Assembly (NCBI GenBank): GCA_900199505.1
Contig: FZQV01000001.1
Location: forward strand, 124,001-188,000
Direction: 5' to 3'
Length of the DNA: 64,000 nucleotides
Source of the DNA: Ruaniaceae bacterium KH17
GTDB lineage: Bacteria; Actinomycetota; Actinomycetes; Actinomycetales; Actinomycetaceae
Of this stretch, positions 11,511 through 58,851 are shown in pieces. Every line of letters starts with the position of its first letter. The first letter of the stretch is position 1. Made by a program: the position numbers and the translations under genes. The notes beneath the pieces are model-generated. The model was given only the letters and a program-made list of their open reading frames with translations, was not told the origin of the DNA and did no database searches.

Positions 11511-11540
11511 CCTTCAGCTCTTCGTAGCCTTCAGCTATTC

Positions 11541-11645
11541 GTCATTCTGCGCGAAGGCGAAGCCGGAGTCGCAGAGTCCATGACCGATTTCCTTGTCCGT
11601 GCGCTCCCCTGGATCCTGCGATCCGCTACGCGGCCGCAGAATGAC
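11541..11645. repeat. REP-like palindromic element, copy a
   Basis: Two half-palindromes in opposite orientation. The left half begins GTCATTCTGCGCG and ends GAGTCGCAGAGTCCA. The right half begins TGGATCCTGCGA and ends CGCAGAATGAC. The ends form about 11-bp terminal inverted repeats. The element lies between the convergent whiB and groES genes, and the same pattern recurs at nine other places in the window. Confidence 0.85.
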
Positions 11646-14940: not shown

Positions 14941-15003
14941 CAGAACCCGCGGGGTCAGCGAGCGCAATCAGTAGAGCCTACCGAAAGCACATTGATCCAA
15001 GGC

Positions 15004-15051
15004 CTGGATCCTGCGACTCCATTCGCGTCGCTCATTTCGCGCAGGATGACG
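15004..15051. repeat. REP-like half element, copy b
   Basis: One half-palindrome beginning TGGATCCTGCGACTCC and ending GCGCAGGATGACG, downstream of the YbdK-type gene and just past the tsaD 3' end. It matches the right half of the other REP copies. Confidence 0.75.
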
Positions 15052-15063
15052 AGGATTGGGGCA

Positions 15064-16113
15064 CTAGGGCGCCATGTAAGTGGTGCTGAGGTCCATGCCC
15101 GAATCGTTCGGGAAGTCCAGCGGCGAGGGTGGCAGGCCCGCCCGCACGAGGGCCGAGCCGAGCGCGGCGATCATCGCGCCGTTGTCCGTGCAGTAGCGGA
15201 TCGGCGGAATGCGCACCGTGAGTCCGTACTCCGAGGCCCGCTCCTGCGCCAGTTCGCGCAGCCGCGAGTTCGCCGAGAACCCGCCGCCGATCACGAGCGT
15301 CGTGGCGCCGAGCGACGACGCCGCCTCCAGCGCCTTCCGTGTCAGCACGTCATTCACGGCCTCGGAGAAGGACGCGGCGATATCCGCCACGGGCAGTTCT
15401 TCCCCGGCGTCCTCGATCGCCTCCACATGCCGCGCCACGGCGGTCTTCAACCCCGAGAACGAGAAGTCGTAGCGGTACCGTTCGGCATCCTTCGCATTGC
15501 TCAGCGCGCGCGGGAACCGGATCGCGTTCCGATCCCCCTCCTTGGAGAGCCGGTCGATGTGAGGCCCGCCCGGGTACGGCAGATCGAGCAGCCGGCCCAC
15601 CTTGTCAAAAGCCTCGCCCGCAGCGTCGTCGAGGGTCGAGCCCAGTTCGGTGACGCCGTCGGCAATGGATGTCACAGACAGCAGCGAGGAATGTCCCCCC
15701 GAGACCACCAACGCCACGAAGCGCTCCGGGAACGGCCCGTTCACGAGCTCGTCCACCGCGATGTGGCCGATCACGTGGTTCACGCCGTAGATCGGCAGGT
15801 TCCGCCCGACGGCGAGTGCTTTCGCGGCAGCGGTCCCCACAGTGAGCGATCCGATCAGGCCGGGCCCGGCGGCGCACGCGATCGCGTCCACATCATCGAG
15901 GGTCACGTCCGCGGCGTCGAGAGCCGCGTTCAGCGTGGGCAGGAACTGCTCCAGGTGCGCGCGTGAGGCAATCTCGGGGATGATGCCGCCGTAGCGGGCG
16001 TACTCGTCCATCGAGGTGGCCGTGACGTCCGCGAGGAGCTCGCGGCCGCGCACCAGCGCCACGCCGGTCTCATCGCACGTGGACTCGATGCCAAGAATCA
16101 GTGGTTCACTCAC
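15064..16113 (-). CDS. tsaD: tRNA t6A37 threonylcarbamoyltransferase TsaD
   Basis: A 349-residue Kae1/Qri7/TsaD protein. With TsaB and TsaE it transfers threonylcarbamoyl from TC-AMP to A37 of ANN-decoding tRNAs. It begins LILGIESTCDETGVALV. The iron-binding HxxxH is present as NHVIGHI, and the nucleotide-site motif LVVSGGHSSLL and FSFSGLKTAV follow. TsaB, TsaE and RimI are encoded 5-6 kb away rather than next to it, with sdhCAB between. In many actinobacteria tsaD directly follows rimI, so this looks like an interrupted operon. Confidence 0.98.
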   Translation of the reverse strand: MSEPLILGIESTCDETGVALVRGRELLADVTATSMDEYARYGGIIPEIASRAHLEQFLPTLNAALDAADVTLDDVDAIACAAGPGLIGSLTVGTAAAKALAVGRNLPIYGVNHVIGHIAVDELVNGPFPERFVALVVSGGHSSLLSVTSIADGVTELGSTLDDAAGEAFDKVGRLLDLPYPGGPHIDRLSKEGDRNAIRFPRALSNAKDAERYRYDFSFSGLKTAVARHVEAIEDAGEELPVADIAASFSEAVNDVLTRKALEAASSLGATTLVIGGGFSANSRLRELAQERASEYGLTVRIPPIRYCTDNGAMIAALGSALVRAGLPPSPLDFPNDSGMDLSTTYMAP

Positions 16114-16340: not shown

Positions 16341-17080
16341 CTAGTGTCCCCTGCGCCAACTGCGCGAGAGATCGGCGTTCAACTGGGAAATCACGTCGAG
16401 CGGGATCTCCTTGGGGCACACGGCCGCGCACTCGCCGATGTTCTGGCAGCCGCCGAAGCCTTCGGCGTCGTGCTGGTTCAGCATGTCCACCACGCGGCCG
16501 AGACGCTCGGGCTGGCCCTGCGGCAGCATCCCGAGGTGGGTGATCTTCGCGGCCGTGAACAGCATCGCCGAGGCGTTCGGGCACGCCGCCACGCAGGCGC
16601 CGCAACCGATGCATGCCGCAGCCTCGAAGGCGCGATCCGCATCCGGCTTGGGCACTGGAACGGCGTGCGCGTCCGGAGCCGCACCCGTGTTCACGGAGAT
16701 GTAGCCACCGGCCTGAATGATCCGGTCGAGGGCCCGGCGGTCCACCACCAGGTCCTTGATGATCGGGAACGCCGTGGAACGCCACGGCTCGATCGTGATC
16801 GTGTCGCCATCCTTGAACGAGCGCATGTGCAGCTGGCAGGTGGTGGTGACCTCGGGACCGTGCGCGATTCCGTTGATCACGAGACCGCACATGCCGCAGA
16901 TTCCTTCACGGCAGTCCGAATCGAAGGCCACGGGCTCCTCGCCGCGGGCAAAGAGTTCTTCGTTGAGGACGTCCAGCATCTCCAGGAAGGACATGTGGTC
17001 TTCGACGCCCATGAGCTCGTACGCGACCATCTTGCCGGGAGCCTTCGGCCCCGGCTGCCGCCACACATTGAGGGTGATGT

Positions 17081-17084
<4 letters not shown>
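16341..17084 (-). CDS. sdhB: Succinate dehydrogenase iron-sulfur subunit
   Basis: A 247-residue SdhB/FrdB subunit that carries electrons from the flavoprotein to the quinone site. All three cluster motifs are visible: [10 protein letters not shown] for [2Fe-2S], [12 protein letters not shown] for [4Fe-4S] and [12 protein letters not shown] for [3Fe-4S]. The GTG at 17084 overlaps the sdhA stop (GTGA) and gives [13 protein letters not shown], the usual family start. An in-frame upstream ATG at 17168 lies inside sdhA and is rejected. It is the last gene of sdhC-sdhA-sdhB and is followed by a strong hairpin. Confidence 0.97.
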
Positions 17085-19033
<1,949 letters not shown>

Positions 19034-19045
19034 GTTTCGATTCCC

Positions 19046-19759
19046 TTAACTGATAAACCCGAAGAAGATGCCGAACGGCGGAAGCATGAAGGCGAAGAAG
19101 ACCACCGCCGCAACCGTAATCGCAATGGCGTTGATCCAGCCCTCGCGGCGCTTCTTACTCCAGCCCAGCGACGCGATCGCGGACCACACACCGTGCCGCA
19201 CGTGCATCGCAAGCGCGGCGAGCGGGATCATGTAGGCGAGCACCATGTACCAGTTCGAGAATGACGCAACCATCCGCTCGTACGGCGTGAGCATGTGGTA
19301 GTCGCCTCCGATCTGGAAGGTGAGCGTGGTGAAGTGCAGGATGTGGAACACGATGAAGACCAGGATGATCACGCCGCCCCAGCGCATCGTGCGGGACGCA
19401 TAGGTCGTGGCGAGGGTCTGGTGGTTCACGTACTGATCGGTGCCGCGGGCCTTGCGCGCCCGGATCCAGAGCCGCAACGCGGCCTCCACGTGGATGAGGA
19501 GCGAGAGCGCGAGAAGCGCCCGGAACGCCCACAGGAACCACATCGGCGGAATCAGGTGCGGGATCGGATCGCGCAACCACTCGGCGTATCCGTCAAAGGC
19601 CTCTGGGCCCATGAACATCTTGAGGTTGCCGTAGGCATGGAAAACAACGAAGATCACGAAGAAGAGTCCGGAGACTGCCATCGTGATCTTGGTCGCGACT
19701 GAGGTATTCCGCGCCCGCGTCTTGCGGGTCACAGCTTTGCTATCTGATGAAGGGGTCAC
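19046..19759 (-). CDS. sdhC: Succinate dehydrogenase cytochrome b subunit (single anchor)
   Basis: A 237-residue, five-helix type B anchor that binds two haems and the quinone. Candidate haem-ligand histidines lie in FVVFHAYGN, LLIHVEAAL, FHILHF and LAMHVRHGV. There is no sdhD, which fits the one-subunit type. Translation starts at GTG 19759. A minus-strand TAATAT (19766-19771) ends only 6 bases before it, so the operon may be leaderless. Confidence 0.95.
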   Translation of the reverse strand: MTPSSDSKAVTRKTRARNTSVATKITMAVSGLFFVIFVVFHAYGNLKMFMGPEAFDGYAEWLRDPIPHLIPPMWFLWAFRALLALSLLIHVEAALRLWIRARKARGTDQYVNHQTLATTYASRTMRWGGVIILVFIVFHILHFTTLTFQIGGDYHMLTPYERMVASFSNWYMVLAYMIPLAALAMHVRHGVWSAIASLGWSKKRREGWINAIAITVAAVVFFAFMLPPFGIFFGFIS

Positions 19760-19853: not shown

Positions 19854-20300
19854 CTATTGCAACGTTTTGAGCATGACGACGGCGTCCTGTCCCGTCGCAA
19901 CGTAGTAGTTCGGCCGCACGGCGATGGGTTCGAAGCCGGCGCGCGCATAGAGCCGCTGGGCACCGGCATCATCGGCCCGCACTTCGAGCAGGATCTCGCG
20001 TGCCCCACCTGCGATCGCCTCGTCGAGCAACGCCCGCAGGAGCCGAGCCCCGATCCCCTGCTTCTGATGACTGCGTGCCACACCGATCGTGAGCAGGTCC
20101 GAAACCGGCGCCAGGATCACTCCGCCCCAGCCGATCAGGACGCCGTCCTCAACCACGCTGAGGTAGCTCCGGAATGGGTTGCAGAGCTCATCGGTGTGCG
20201 TGTCGCGACTCCACGCCTCCGGCCCAAACAGGTCCAGGTCCAAGGCGACGATCGCGTCCAGGTCCGCCATCGTCGTCGGCCTGATCGTGCTAGGAGGCAC
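19854..20300 (-). CDS. rimI: Ribosomal protein S18 N-acetyltransferase-like GNAT enzyme
   Basis: A 148-residue GNAT-fold acetyltransferase. By position beside tsaB it is RimI, which acetylates the N-terminus of ribosomal protein S18. The start STIRPTTMADLDAIVALDLD, the acetyl-CoA loop HQKQGIGARLLRAL and the C-terminal DAGAQRLYARAGFEPIAVRPNYY are typical. GTG 20300 is preferred because it begins the conserved IRP(A/T)T segment and overlaps tsaB by 11 bases; an ATG lies ten residues further in. The 3' end and the adjoining spacer are clearly AT-richer than their surroundings. Confidence 0.93.
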   Translation of the reverse strand: MPPSTIRPTTMADLDAIVALDLDLFGPEAWSRDTHTDELCNPFRSYLSVVEDGVLIGWGGVILAPVSDLLTIGVARSHQKQGIGARLLRALLDEAIAGGAREILLEVRADDAGAQRLYARAGFEPIAVRPNYYVATGQDAVVMLKTLQ

Positions 20301-20901
20301 GCTTCCGCCCTGCCGAGGCGTGGATGTCCGGGCGGCGCAGGTAGAGCGGCTCGGTCGGCTGCTCGGCGCCCCAGCGCGCAGTGGCGATGCGCGCGAGGAC
20401 TGCCGGATCGACGGCGAGATCCCGCCCCGGCAGCGCCTCCGGGTAGAGCCGCGCACCGGCACCCACGAGCGTGCCCCGAATCGCCACATCCTCGGGAATG
20501 GCGACGGCGAAAGGATCGATGAGCTCGACGTCGTCGGCCCCGAGAGGCCGATAGCTCGCCCAGAAGACCTCCTTGCGCCGGGCATCCGTGGCGACAGTGA
20601 TCTCGGCGGCCCCGGCATCGAGCGCCTGGCGGGCGAGCGCATCCAGCGAGGGAACGCCCACCACGGGGATGCCACGCGCGGCGGCGAGCGCCCGCGCCGT
20701 CACGATGCCCACGCGCAGACCGGTGAACGGCGCCGGCCCGGTGCCGACCACGATCGCGTCCGACTCCGGCAACTCGGCGAGCATGGGAGCAAGGTGCTCG
20801 GCGTGGCCGCGTGAATCGGCGTTCGCACGCCGCTCCACGGCCGTGCCATCAACGAAGGCCACCGAGGTGCCCTCGGAGGTATCGATCGCAAGCCACTTCA
20901 T
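20290..20901 (-). CDS. tsaB: tRNA t6A biosynthesis protein TsaB
   Basis: A 203-residue inactive TsaD paralogue that forms the TsaB-TsaD heterodimer needed for t6A synthesis. The N-terminus MKWLAIDTSEGTSVAF, GHAEHLAPMLAEL and GTGPAPFTGLRVGIVTARAL are diagnostic. Its start overlaps the stop of the upstream secreted-protein gene (ATGA), so both are cotranscribed. Its end overlaps rimI. Confidence 0.96.
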   Translation of the reverse strand: MKWLAIDTSEGTSVAFVDGTAVERRANADSRGHAEHLAPMLAELPESDAIVVGTGPAPFTGLRVGIVTARALAAARGIPVVGVPSLDALARQALDAGAAEITVATDARRKEVFWASYRPLGADDVELIDPFAVAIPEDVAIRGTLVGAGARLYPEALPGRDLAVDPAVLARIATARWGAEQPTEPLYLRRPDIHASAGRKRAS

Positions 20902-21587
20902 CGTCTTTCACGTTCCTTTCTGACCGCCACGGTGGTCGCCACGAGCACGAGCACGCTCACGATCACCAACGCGGCGGTCATGACCACCCTGCTGCTATCC
21001 ACCTCCGGCGCGGGTTCGGGGGTCTCGCGAGCCTCCAGCGTTCCGTTCCAATCGCGCACGTAGTCCTGGATTGACGCGATCGGCATCGGGCCCGCGAGGA
21101 CCGCCAGCGCCTCATCGGTGAGAGGGCGGACCTCCCCATCAACGAGCGAGAACCAGGCGTTCAGACTGTTATCGAAGACGAGTTCCGTTGAGGAGGCTAC
21201 TGCGGCACGGCCGAACCGGCTCGTCCAGATCACGGCGGAGTGGGTGACGGCGCCCTCCGTGACGTCCACGATGAGACCGCCACTGATCTCCTCACGCGGC
21301 TCGTCGTCCTCCGCAACCGAGACGGTCACCGGGGAGACCCACCGGTCCGTCTCGATGAGCGGCTCCCCGGCTCCGCCCATGAGGTAGCTCTCGGACCAGG
21401 TCCACGCCTGGACGGGGGCGCCGAGGGAGAGCGTCTCTTCCTCGAGGTTCGGGATGTTCGGATCGGCGACGATGGTGGCGATTCCATCCTCCGCGAGCCA
21501 GGTCGTCACGGGTTCGGGCGCGTCCGCCGCCTGGGCTGCTGGGGCCGCCAAGAGTAGCGCCGTCAGCAACGCGATAAGTGTCCCCAC
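20898..21587 (-). CDS. Secreted, membrane-tethered protein of unknown function in the t6A operon
   Basis: I do not recognise a family. The 229-residue product has a clear signal peptide (GTLIALLTALLLAAPAAQA), an extracellular region of about 175 residues with no cysteine or obvious motif, and a C-terminal helix (VVMTAALVIVSVLVLVATTV) ending RKERERR: a type I topology. There is no LPXTG. It starts near a REP element. GTG 21587 puts the signal peptide at the N-terminus. An ATG at 21626 would read through repeat DNA. The stop overlaps tsaB by four bases. A cell-surface protein between tsaE and tsaB is unexpected, and its link to t6A is unknown. Confidence 0.75.
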   Translation of the reverse strand: MGTLIALLTALLLAAPAAQAADAPEPVTTWLAEDGIATIVADPNIPNLEEETLSLGAPVQAWTWSESYLMGGAGEPLIETDRWVSPVTVSVAEDDEPREEISGGLIVDVTEGAVTHSAVIWTSRFGRAAVASSTELVFDNSLNAWFSLVDGEVRPLTDEALAVLAGPMPIASIQDYVRDWNGTLEARETPEPAPEVDSSRVVMTAALVIVSVLVLVATTVAVRKERERR

Positions 21588-21621
21588 GATCCTGCACGTA
21601 GGGCGCAGCCCGGCCAGACCC

Positions 21622-21753
21622 GTCATCCTGCGCGTAGGGCGTAGCCCAGAGTCGCAGGATCCAGGGGTGACATCCACGTACGTCCTGGATCCTGCGACTC
21701 CGCTTCTGATTTCGACTCGCTTCGCTCGCTCAATCCGGGTCGCTCGGGGTGAC
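21622..21753. repeat. REP-like element, copy d (chimeric)
   Basis: The left half is standard (GTCATCCTGCGCG to GCAGGATCCA), and the right half starts TGGATCCTGCGACTCCGCTT. The right half then switches to TTCGACTCGCTTCGCTCGCT, a second repeat family also seen near 2066 and 44990, before ending GGGTGACGAG. It lies within the operon, between tsaE and the secreted-protein gene. Confidence 0.8.
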
Positions 21754-21763
21754 GAGGTGAGAC

Positions 21764-22240
21764 TCACAGCTCGACCCCGTCCCAGCGGGGGCCGTGCGTG
21801 GTGATGCTGAGGTGGCGGGGTTCGTCGCCCATGGGGTCGCCCGCGTCGGCGCCACGGGGACGCTCGATCGCGATTTCAAGCCGATCCTCGGCCAGCACTT
21901 CGGCGATGCCTTCGCCCCACTCGACCACGGTCACGGAGTCCTCAAGCGAGGCGTCGAGGTCCAACGCATCCAGTTCGTCCAGCCCGCTCAAGCGGTAGGC
22001 GTCCACATGCACCAGACCCGGCCCTGCGCCGTCGGCCGAACGATGTGTACGTGCAATCACAAACGTGGGCGAGGCGACCGTCCCTGTGACGGCGAGACCT
22101 TCCCCGATCCCCTTGGTGAGGGTGGTCTTGCCCGCGCCGAGGCCGCCGTGCAGGAGCACGAGGTCCCCGGGGCGGAGCTGCGCGGCGAGCCGCCGACCGA
22201 ACTCGCGCATGTCTTCGGACGTGGCGATCGTTAGTTCCAT
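21764..22240 (-). CDS. tsaE: tRNA t6A biosynthesis ATPase TsaE
   Basis: A 158-residue P-loop protein that drives the TsaBD cycle. The Walker A is HGGLGAGKTTLTKGIGEGL, followed by SPTFVIAR, the conserved HVDAYRL and VTVVEWGEG. Its ATG overlaps the last 10 bases of alr, so the two are cotranslated. The C-terminus is slightly extended with Asp/Arg-rich sequence. Confidence 0.96.
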   Translation of the reverse strand: MELTIATSEDMREFGRRLAAQLRPGDLVLLHGGLGAGKTTLTKGIGEGLAVTGTVASPTFVIARTHRSADGAGPGLVHVDAYRLSGLDELDALDLDASLEDSVTVVEWGEGIAEVLAEDRLEIAIERPRGADAGDPMGDEPRHLSITTHGPRWDGVEL

Positions 22241-23352
22241 GTGCCCTCCTCGATCGGGGCGTCCACGTAGACGCGCGGCACGCTCCGGCCGAGCTGAGTG
22301 GTGATGGTGTAGTTGATGGTATCCGCGGCGCGCGCCCAGTCCTCGGCGCGCGGGCCGTCCGGACCGAACAGGACCACGGGATCGCCCGCCTGCGCCGGGA
22401 TGTCACCGAGGTCCACCACGAACTGGTCCATGCAAATCCGCCCCACCTGCGGCACGGTGCGGCCGTTAACGGCGACGGCGGTGCGATTCGAGGCCTGGCG
22501 GGGCAGGCCGTCCGCGTAGCCGAGTGGGATATCGGCGAGCCACGTTGGCCCGACGACGGCGGTGTGGCCATAGGAGACCGGCGTCCCCTCCGGCACATGC
22601 TTGGTTTGGAACACTTCGGTCTCCAGCCGCATCGCGGGAACGAGGCCGTGGGTGCGCGGGTCCGAGCCGTCCGGCGGGAGTCCATACATCGCAACGCCCA
22701 CGCGGACCAGATCCAAGTGCGTGGCGGGGTGGAACATGAGGCCGCCCGATGCGGCGAGGTGTCGGATGTGGTGGCCGAGGCCGAGTGCCGTCGCGGCGGT
22801 GTCAGCGCGCTCGAAGAGCTCGAGTTGCTCGGCGGTGGTGGTCAGTTCCGGCTCATCGGCGCGGGCGAGGTGTGACCAGACGGCCACGGGGGCCAACTCG
22901 CGGCGGGCGAGGACGTCGTGGATGAGCGTGTCCCAGTCCTCGATCCGGGCGCCACCGCGGGCCATGCCCGTGTCGATCTTGAGGTGCACTCGCGCGGTGG
23001 TACCGGCCTTCGCCGCGGCCGCGGCGACCTGCGCCGCCTGGCTCGGGGTCGAGACACCAATCTGAATGCCGGCCGCGACGACCGGGCTGAGGTCTTCGTG
23101 CTGGCCGTAGATCCAGGTGAATGCGCGCGGCACGGGCACCTCGCGCACCACCGTGAGCGCCTCGGTAGCCTGCGCGATTCCGATCCATTGGGCGCCCGTC
23201 TCGATCGCGGCCCGCGCGGTCTCGACGGCGCCGTGCCCGTAGCCGTCCGCCTTCACGATCGCCATGAACTCGGCGTCCGTGCGCGCGGCCAGCGTGGCCA
23301 CGTTGTGCCGGATGGCCGCAAGGTTCACCACGGCCCGAGCAGGAAAGCGCAT
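22231..23352 (-). CDS. alr: Alanine racemase
   Basis: A 373-residue PLP enzyme that makes D-alanine for peptidoglycan. The PLP lysine is in AIVKADGYGHGA. The second-half catalytic tyrosine region is GTPVSYGHT, and GRICMDQFVVDLG is conserved. The ATG at 23352 gives MRFPARAVVNLAAIRHN, the usual start. Upstream in-frame codons run into repeat-rich intergenic DNA. It is followed by tsaE with a 10-base overlap, an order common in actinobacteria. Confidence 0.96.
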   Translation of the reverse strand: MRFPARAVVNLAAIRHNVATLAARTDAEFMAIVKADGYGHGAVETARAAIETGAQWIGIAQATEALTVVREVPVPRAFTWIYGQHEDLSPVVAAGIQIGVSTPSQAAQVAAAAAKAGTTARVHLKIDTGMARGGARIEDWDTLIHDVLARRELAPVAVWSHLARADEPELTTTAEQLELFERADTAATALGLGHHIRHLAASGGLMFHPATHLDLVRVGVAMYGLPPDGSDPRTHGLVPAMRLETEVFQTKHVPEGTPVSYGHTAVVGPTWLADIPLGYADGLPRQASNRTAVAVNGRTVPQVGRICMDQFVVDLGDIPAQAGDPVVLFGPDGPRAEDWARAADTINYTITTQLGRSVPRVYVDAPIEEGTWN

Positions 23353-23638: not shown

Positions 23639-24079
23639 TTAGTACCAGATCCTGTCGTCCTGGACGAGGAAGAGGTCATTGATGTGGGCGATGTCATCCG
23701 GCGAGTAGTCGCCGCATTGGTCCGTCCACACTGCACCCGGCCGGACCCATCCACCGCCGTAGCTAAACTCCTGCCCCTCGATCGCATAGAGCTTGCCGTT
23801 CTTCTCCTCCATCACCGCCCGGACGCCGTTGCCAAACTCGATGCCAACAGCGTTCGGGAACACAACGGGCTCCGGCAACCGATCGTCGTCGGGAGAGAGA
23901 ATCATCGTGCAGCCCTCGTCAGAGAACGCGAGCCGGCCTTCAATAAGTGCATCCATTCCCCCGTCCCTGCCCCACTTGTGCGTGGGAATCTCGAACCGCT
24001 CGGCACCTTCCGGCGTTGCCGCACTACAGGCCGCGAGCTGTAGCGTTATCAGCCCGACGGCGATCACTCGAGTTCCCAT
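23639..24079 (-). CDS. Putative lipoprotein, unknown function
   Basis: A 146-residue product with a lipoprotein signal: MGTRVIAVGLITLQLAACSA, with Cys18 in the lipobox LAAC. The ATG at 24079 follows AGGAGG at good spacing. The longer in-frame extension upstream reads through REP DNA and is rejected. The mature part has two cysteines (in EGCTMILSPD and DQCGDYSPDD) that could pair, an FPNAVGIEFGNGV segment and a C-terminal YSPDDIAHINDLF. I recognise no family. It stands alone between alr and a duplicated REP region. Confidence 0.8.
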   Translation of the reverse strand: MGTRVIAVGLITLQLAACSAATPEGAERFEIPTHKWGRDGGMDALIEGRLAFSDEGCTMILSPDDDRLPEPVVFPNAVGIEFGNGVRAVMEEKNGKLYAIEGQEFSYGGGWVRPGAVWTDQCGDYSPDDIAHINDLFLVQDDRIWY

Positions 24080-24140
24080 AACGGCCTCCTTACCCCGGAT
24101 GTCTCCAGACAGCGCCCGATCCTGACTGATATCCGCGAAC

Positions 24141-24237
24141 GTGTTACCCTGCGCGAAGTCGCAGGGTCCAGTCCCTACGGACGGGTCATCTCGCGTCCAT
24201 GGATTCTGCGATTCCGCTTCGCTCCACGCAGGATGAC
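24141..24237. repeat. REP-like element, copy e1, inside a 118-bp duplication
   Basis: A REP copy contained in the left unit (24149-24266) of a direct repeat. The right unit is 24355-24472. I count two differences over 118 bases. The left unit ends with bases identical to the end of nnr, including its stop codon. Confidence 0.85.
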
Positions 24238-24472
24238 GGAGGTGTGGCCCGATCAAGAGTCCAGGAGTCGGCGTGGGGTACGCCGTTCCTGCGCGCTCAG
24301 GCGACGGGCCGCTACGGCTGGGGGGTAGTGGCACGGCAGCTGCTCGCGTGATCACTGCGCGAAGTCGCAGGGTCCAGTCCCTACGGACGGGTCATCTCGC
24401 GTCCATGGATCCTGCGATTCCGCTTCGCTCCACGCAGGATGACGGGGGTGTGGCCCGATCAAGAGTCCAGGA
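24149..24472. repeat. 118-bp direct duplication including the nnr 3' end
   Basis: The units at 24149-24266 and 24355-24472 are nearly identical and 206 bases apart. Each contains a REP element plus GTGTGGCCCGATCAAGAGTC. The right unit overlaps the last codons and stop of nnr. Between the units, minus-strand DNA (24267-24354) has an open frame that ends RRLLDS at the duplicated stop, reminiscent of RRFLDS at the end of nnr. This fits a segmental duplication that left a gene-tail remnant. Confidence 0.8.
24351..24443. repeat. REP-like element, copy e2
   Basis: The right-hand REP copy, directly downstream of nnr. It begins CACTGCGCGAAGTCGCAGGG and ends ACGCAGGATGAC. Confidence 0.82.
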
Positions 24473-43943: not shown

Positions 43944-44036
43944 GCATCCTGAGCGGAGTCGCAGGATCCAGGAACGTACGACAGACCGTCCGCAATGCCA
44001 TGGATTCTGCGATCTGCTCCGCAGCCGCAGACTGAC
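43944..44036. repeat. REP-like palindromic element, copy h
   Basis: Between map and infA. It begins GCATCCTGAGCGGAGTCGCA, has inner boundaries GGATCCA and TGGATTCTGCGA, and ends CGCAGACTGAC. Confidence 0.78.
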
Positions 44037-44910: not shown

Positions 44911-45027
44911 GTCATCCTGCGCGAAGCCGCAGGATCCAGAACGTACACGTGCGCTACCTAGACTCTGCAACTCCACGTCTTGATTTCGTCTCGCTTCGTT
45001 CGCTCAATCCAAGCCGCGCAGAATGAC
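44911..45027. repeat. REP-like element, copy i (chimeric)
   Basis: The left half is standard (GTCATCCTGCGCG to GCAGGATCCA). The right half contains GATTTCGTCTCGCTTCGTTC, the second repeat family, before the REP end GCGCAGAATGAC. It occupies nearly the whole adk-map gap. Confidence 0.8.
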
Positions 45028-45036
45028 GAGGTTGGT

Positions 45037-58696: not shown

Positions 58697-58830
58697 GTCA
58701 TTCTGCGCGATAGCCTAGTTCGTCATTCTGCGCGGAGGGCGTAGCCCGGAGTCGCAGAATCCACAGAGTGCACGCGATCTGGCGTATTCAACTGGATCCT
58801 GCGTCTTCGCTTCGCTACGCGCAGGATGAC
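58697..58830. repeat. REP-like element, copy j, with nested partial copy
   Basis: Two left ends (GTCATTCTGCGCG at 58697 and again at 58722) precede a full element that ends CGCGCAGGATGAC. This looks like one REP inserted into, or duplicated within, another, between sortase and pilin. Confidence 0.8.
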
Positions 58831-58851
58831 GAGACTACCCCGCTCATGAGA

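Follow-up and report, generated by a model that had tools for sequence, protein, structure and literature searches.

What does a gene for an apparently exported, membrane-anchored protein do between tsaE and tsaB, two genes of t6A synthesis? The gene, here called X, lies in a stretch of 64,000 nucleotides from Ruaniaceae bacterium KH17 (hereafter, the window), in which the order of genes on the minus strand is alr, tsaE, X, tsaB, rimI (Table 1). The initial annotation had placed an open reading frame between tsaE and tsaB with a four-base overlap with the latter, and all of these elements are present, the neighbours being confirmed by NCBIfam models: the ATGA at 20898-20901 holds both the TGA stop codon of X and the ATG of tsaB. 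The product also looks exported and anchored, as had been proposed, since it begins with a hydrophobic segment bearing an AxA-type site and ends in a helix (198-228) with basic residues at its end, both read from the sequence and the predicted model. Three start codons are candidates, namely GTG 21587 (the one chosen earlier), ATG 21626 and GTG 21767; the ATG would place two arginines before the hydrophobic stretch and thus give a better signal peptide than GTG 21587. The stretch upstream is filled by a dispersed repeat, and both GTG 21587 and ATG 21626 fall within it or at its edge, so that the start of X is uncertain.

Table 1. Features of the alr-tsa region, in positions of the window
Feature	Position	Strand	Description and basis
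Gene X	20898..21587	-	Putative signal peptide, alpha+beta ectodomain, C-terminal membrane helix and short basic tail; sequence, predicted model, homologs
Possible longer N-terminus of X, starting at ATG 21626	21588..21626	-	Would add Arg ahead of the hydrophobic segment; sequence, inference
tsaB	20290..20901	-	TIGR03725, 147.3 bits (cut-off 69.3); overlaps X by ATGA
tsaE	21764..22240	-	TIGR00150, 88.7 bits (cut-off 60.1)
alr (alanine racemase)	22231..23352	-	TIGR00492, 285.7 bits (cut-off 168); start picked by eye
rimI	19854..20299	-	TIGR01575, 91.7 bits (cut-off 86.4); start approximate
tsaD	15064-16113		Separated from rimI by sdhCAB-type genes

The repeat is an imperfect palindrome with the core TCATCCTGCGCG ... 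GAGTCGCAGGATCCAGG, and the copy at 21589-21760 fills the gap between tsaE and X and reaches the start of X. Further copies were found, for example, at 11540-11627, 15003-15051, 24153-24249, 24359-24446, 43952-43980, 44925-45032 and 58721-58831, and a stricter pattern gave one match in the genome, outside the window, which indicates that the copies have diverged. Part of the 5' end of another open reading frame (23639-24355), located between alr and the NAD(P)H-hydrate gene, also overlaps the repeat; this frame had no NCBIfam match and is a lipoprotein by eye.

The earlier view that X belongs to no known family was borne out. Searched alone, it had no Pfam or NCBIfam family at E <= 1, nor any match to TsaB-, TsaD- or TsaE-type models in these collections, and 26 X proteins from tsa loci were likewise assigned no family and no sensory or enzymatic domain. 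Sequence searches of the PDB with the X family reached at best E 0.069 and 0.2, over the membrane-helix stretch and to an unrelated protein. Scans of named genomes, which need short near-exact stretches and therefore reach close relatives only, gave no relative, and titles and abstract openings in the open-access library searched gave no account of X or of the X/protease pair described below. A sortase-anchored surface protein was considered and rejected, as no LPXTG-type motif is read before the membrane helix and no NCBIfam match was obtained; a sorting-signal model matched one of the 26 tsa-locus proteins weakly (0.13), and some of the protease-paired homologs below cut-off.

The conservation of X and its site was followed in the bacterial family of the window genome. 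A single-sequence search matched 28 of 99 relatives (own genome included), and 27 of the 28 matches adjoin TsaE, TsaB or both; a match of 71 residues in G076 (L026) was dropped, being distant from tsaE and tsaB and missed by the profile. This profile, A1, was built from the 26 tsa-locus X proteins and gave matches at E <= 1e-9 in 109 of 200 same-family genomes (counted by hand), with 18 more of the 127 genomes tallied being left out because their matches were weak and lay nearly all over the membrane-helix part. On the same ground, weak matches of A1 in genomes of the order that start from profile position 136 on were discarded, as were those of a wider profile (A4) in G637 and G444.

When TsaE and TsaB were located by profile matches in the same 99 genomes, both were found in 58 of the same family. 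As had been asked of this site, relatives do keep the gene there: X lies between tsaE and tsaB in 33 of the 58, its positions having been transferred by hand from the A1 search, and beside one neighbour on a split contig in two more (G021 and G034). In the remaining 23, tsaE and tsaB are adjacent without X. The distance between the TsaE and TsaB matches is 105-302 bases in all 23 genomes without X and at least 797 bases in the 33 with it, and A1 found no X in the tsaE/tsaB stretches of the 23. Three genomes fall outside the 58, G028 (with TsaE and X only), G039 and G060, each being without one or both neighbours. Among 34 genomes of other families that carry both genes on a single contig, tsaE and tsaB are adjacent in 28 and separated by a wide gap in six (G066, G073, G080, G084, G092 and G096); these gaps contain no X by A1, and their genes look unrelated by eye.

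Pairs of X from the same genus gave dN/dS values of 0.43 and 0.15; two more pairs gave 0.13 and 0.21 at dS above 2, that is, near saturation, and a fifth gave no dS. X is more than a chance open reading frame, given the homologs that share its site in 33 of the 58 genomes. The overlap with tsaB is kept in some relatives only, the end of X lying from +19 to -79 relative to the TsaB match. In a TsaE+TsaB tree of 64 genomes, those with X stand on several branches and the same-family genomes without X form at least two separate groups; the tree rests on two short proteins and is rooted on one outgroup tip, with some outgroup tips inside the family, so that only its broad pattern was used. The simplest reading of this weak tree is that X was gained once in the family and that the whole gene was then repeatedly lost. 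In G012 (L088 5033-12220), about 7.5 kb with a 2395-codon open reading frame, whose product is secreted by eye, stand between X and tsaB, and X stays with tsaE.

Outside the family, sensitive profile searches, which the initial annotation had proposed, did find distant homologs, most of them beside papain-like proteases. On 198 genomes of the order, A1 gave eight domain-level matches outside the family (G363, G272, G292, G306, G345, G332, G066 and G280), with E-values of 9.4e-26 for G363 and 8.2e-12 for G292. The wider profile A4, run on 345 genomes of the class, added G516, G092, G649 and G543, and a third one, A5, run on 394 class genomes, gave 22 matches in 16 genomes, which comprise the window gene itself and 21 others, the four loci of A4 included. 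The profile X5, used to find the X-type neighbours of PF12385 matches described below, was trained on three proteins that are among its own finds, and a profile made from tsa-locus proteins only recovers three of the six X5 finds and seven of the 21 class-wide paired proteins. When A1 was compared with A6, a profile of 21 paired X proteins containing none from a tsa locus, the alignment (probability 97.6, E 4e-12) comprised 145 columns of the ectodomain and included neither the signal peptide nor the membrane helix. Since the alignment is confined to the ectodomain, the homology does not rest on these two hydrophobic parts, and, as judged from their sequences, the tsa-locus and the protease-paired proteins almost certainly form one family. 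A Trp-Phe/Tyr pair followed by V-x-P is common to both groups. L076 and all 21 proteins paired class-wide also have a PGSxY segment before the membrane helix (with SGSAY and PGTxY variants), which the paired L074 and every one of the 26 tsa-locus proteins lack. Against Pfam and NCBIfam, the 21 paired proteins gave weak matches only, mostly to C-terminal anchors.

At 23 of the 29 X loci outside the family, spread over four of five genera, the gene immediately upstream encodes a secreted C70-type papain-like protease. The product of this gene matches PF12385 in G363 (E 2.3e-6) and G292 (E 3.6e-16), and a protease gene also precedes the X-type gene in G516, G092, G649 and G543. Class-wide, a protease domain is encoded directly upstream on the same strand at 21 of 21 loci, 5-72 bases from the X match, although 20 of these loci come from one genus and are therefore not independent. 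The six loci without pairing belong to G272 and to five genomes of genus g42; because the first protease motif pattern misses some proteases, they were rechecked with two protease profiles, and still no such protease was found in 7-10 kb around X. In the reverse direction, PF12385 gave seven matches in six of 246 class genomes, and an X-type gene adjoins six of them; the matches without such a neighbour are in G076 and, in addition, G074, so that overall an X-type neighbour was present at six of eight.

All 23 paired proteases (21 class-wide, L074 and L076) match PF12385 and retain Cys and His, with a probable third catalytic position occupied by Asp in 22 and Asn in one, the residues being assigned by analogy. 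In 21 of the 23, the Cys follows the hydrophobic peak of the signal peptide after only 25-56 residues, too short a distance for a prodomain as large as that of staphopain. The natural explanation would be that a prodomain-like protein is made separately, from the next gene downstream, and it is likely that the ancestral role of the X family was that of a protease partner. The two longer proteases, L174 and L175, have 124 and 109 residues before the Cys, and this segment looks SH3-like by eye.

SpeB, the papain-like protease of Streptococcus pyogenes, carries its own prodomain, whereas nearly all of the paired proteases have no space for one. The known parallel to the paired X systems, a free-standing propeptide-like protein encoded with a papain-like protease gene, is found beside speB: in the portions of the sources available, Spi is described as a propeptide analogue encoded next to speB and co-transcribed with it (PMC2873492, PMC3462683). 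Spi is described there as acting in the cytoplasm (PMC3462683), whereas X looks exported and anchored, and the Spi gene stands beside that of its target protease, whereas the window copy of X does not. Staphostatins (I57) are likewise dedicated proteins encoded beside secreted papain-like proteases; they are presented, in the same partial sources and a further one, as lipocalin-like beta-barrels thought to be cytoplasmic (PMC2873492, PMC3462683, PMC7863939), unlike X, for which an alpha+beta ectodomain, a signal peptide and a membrane helix are predicted.

The X family would thus consist of exported, C-terminally anchored proteins whose ectodomain may serve secreted papain-like (C70-type) cysteine proteases as a prodomain-like partner. 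Where the two genes are paired, as seen outside the family of the window genome, the protease would have its catalytic domain very soon after the signal peptide, and the downstream X-type gene would supply the prodomain in trans, holding, folding or silencing the enzyme at the membrane. Other genomes of the class would then have a kind of split zymogen, made up of a protease that lacks a prodomain and a prodomain-like partner anchored in the membrane; the paired systems open the idea to direct testing. Some lipases have membrane-anchored foldases, and X in the paired systems could similarly be a steric chaperone rather than an inhibitor; the missing prodomain room in most paired proteases, the membrane helix and the position of the gene directly downstream of the protease all agree with this. 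It is nevertheless somewhat unlikely that folding would be the sole function, as propeptides are described, in the part of the source available, as both folding and inhibiting (PMC3462683).

On the other hand, the window copy has tsaE and tsaB as neighbours instead of a C70-type protease gene, and no protease model matched in the 19 kb around it (L104). PF12385 was found in none of 61 same-family genomes, the own genome included. The C39-type model PF13529 matched in six of the 61, three with X (G000, G019 and G059) and three without (G022, G048 and G052), and a C39-type peptidase was rejected as the partner of X in this family owing to this equal occurrence. The own genome encodes one C39-like protein (G000:C45, L113 1024-2181; PF13529 E 4.5e-5), secreted by eye and with a long N-terminal region. 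Second copies of X occur off the tsa locus in the own-family genus g9 (L086 4604-5308, L087 4543-5244 and L103 4875-5579), and the two protease profiles found no C70-type protease near them.

The reading preferred here, for which we see an even chance, is that X is a membrane-tethered, prodomain-like partner of papain-like (C70-type) proteases that was orphaned in the family of the window genome. The unpaired copy would have become fixed between tsaE and tsaB, been inherited for a long time and been lost more than once, and in this reading it would most probably have kept a protease, or a protein like one, as binding partner on the outer side of the membrane. This partner could be among other proteases, own or foreign, or X may have taken up a new envelope role. 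A more specific proposal, which we consider quite unlikely, is that the family kept only the prodomain half, in the essential alr-tsa operon, as a constitutive membrane-tethered shield against foreign papain-like proteases of competitors or hosts. With the orphaned-partner reading there is a first indication of what this protein, which is unannotated and present in many genomes of a single bacterial family, may do.

It is somewhat doubtful that the orphan lost protease binding altogether and became an envelope protein (a sensor, scaffold or adaptor) with its dosage coupled to alr, glmM and glmS. Such a change would be consistent with the lack of a C70 protease in the 61 same-family genomes, with the missing PGSxY segment, with the long tails (up to about 115 residues) that follow the membrane helix in several tsa-locus proteins, and with the location of alr, glmS and glmM upstream of X in the same direction, glmM and glmS being peptidoglycan-precursor genes. 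However, the shared Trp-Phe/Tyr pair and V-x-P argue against it, as does the lack of any sensory or enzymatic domain in the Pfam and NCBIfam searches.

The predicted fold bears on the orphaned-partner reading from another side. An AlphaFold2 model of X, built on the A1 alignment, reached a mean pLDDT of 89.3 and runs, in order, through a helix, a long bent sheet with interstrand helices, a second long helix and the membrane helix. Foldseek returned nothing for it at E <= 0.001, and VIA-align placed prostaphopain B (1x9y) first (Z 7.4, rmsd 3.8, 124 residues aligned; next rows 4.2), a value no higher than the best Z of 7-8 usual for models that have no clear match. The match covers residues 48-191 of the prostaphopain B chain and would lie in the propeptide, well before the catalytic Cys243 given for staphopain B in an excerpt of PMC7863939, if the numbering is shared. 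A model of a paired homolog (L099; mean pLDDT 76.5) has a similar order of elements and again placed 1x9y first (Z 5.8 versus 4.6 for the next entry, rmsd 4.8, 130 aligned, the range running past the propeptide), with cystatin-like entries following at Z 3-4 and nothing in Foldseek at E <= 0.001. Nup133, SAS-6, XRCC4, KSI/NTF2-like and other structural matches were rejected, as all were below Z 5.

The closest structural match of the X model is probably the propeptide of staphopain B (family C47), itself a secreted papain-like protease, a resemblance that is suggestive and too little to stand alone. The staphopain B propeptide is part of the proenzyme chain, whereas X is made on its own, carries a membrane helix and has no protease beside it in the window, its reading frame stopping after that helix instead of continuing into a C47 protease domain. 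That the likeness is a chance alpha+beta resemblance, X being a protease substrate or an unrelated surface protein that happens to share an operon with proteases, is unlikely: the modest Z, the empty Foldseek results and the lack of detectable sequence similarity to the staphopain B propeptide in PDB sequence and family searches would fit it, but the same entry came first for two models made from different seed sequences (with alignments that share rows), and the gene pairing at all 21 class-wide loci also argues against it.

As for t6A synthesis, it does not need X, since tsaE and tsaB are retained in 23 of the 58 same-family genomes without it, which agrees with the initial annotation in setting X apart from t6A chemistry. 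A sensor role, raised there as one option, found no support, the pairing of most outside relatives with secreted papain-like proteases pointing to a protease partner. It is highly improbable that X senses or regulates t6A synthesis as a secreted or membrane protein acting on TsaB or TsaE: although its position between the two genes is conserved, sometimes with overlap of tsaB, the genomes without X keep both genes, the ectodomain is expected across the membrane from both proteins, and homologous loci outside the family are mostly paired with proteases. The case of X thus warns against inferring a t6A function from operon position.

The proposed coupling to tsaB stands as far as the overlap itself is concerned. 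In the M. tuberculosis operon alr-tsaE-tsaB-rimI-tsaD, the core gene order is the same as in the window, and four-base overlaps run from alr to tsaD, as reported in the available part of the source, the order given there having no X between tsaE and tsaB (PMC5335608). Overlaps of this kind are therefore ordinary for the operon and no special sign of coupling to X. The earlier suggestion that X may gain steady expression from a housekeeping operon fits as well. In the window, rimI and tsaD are separated by sdhCAB-type succinate dehydrogenase genes located at 16341-19759 according to model matches.
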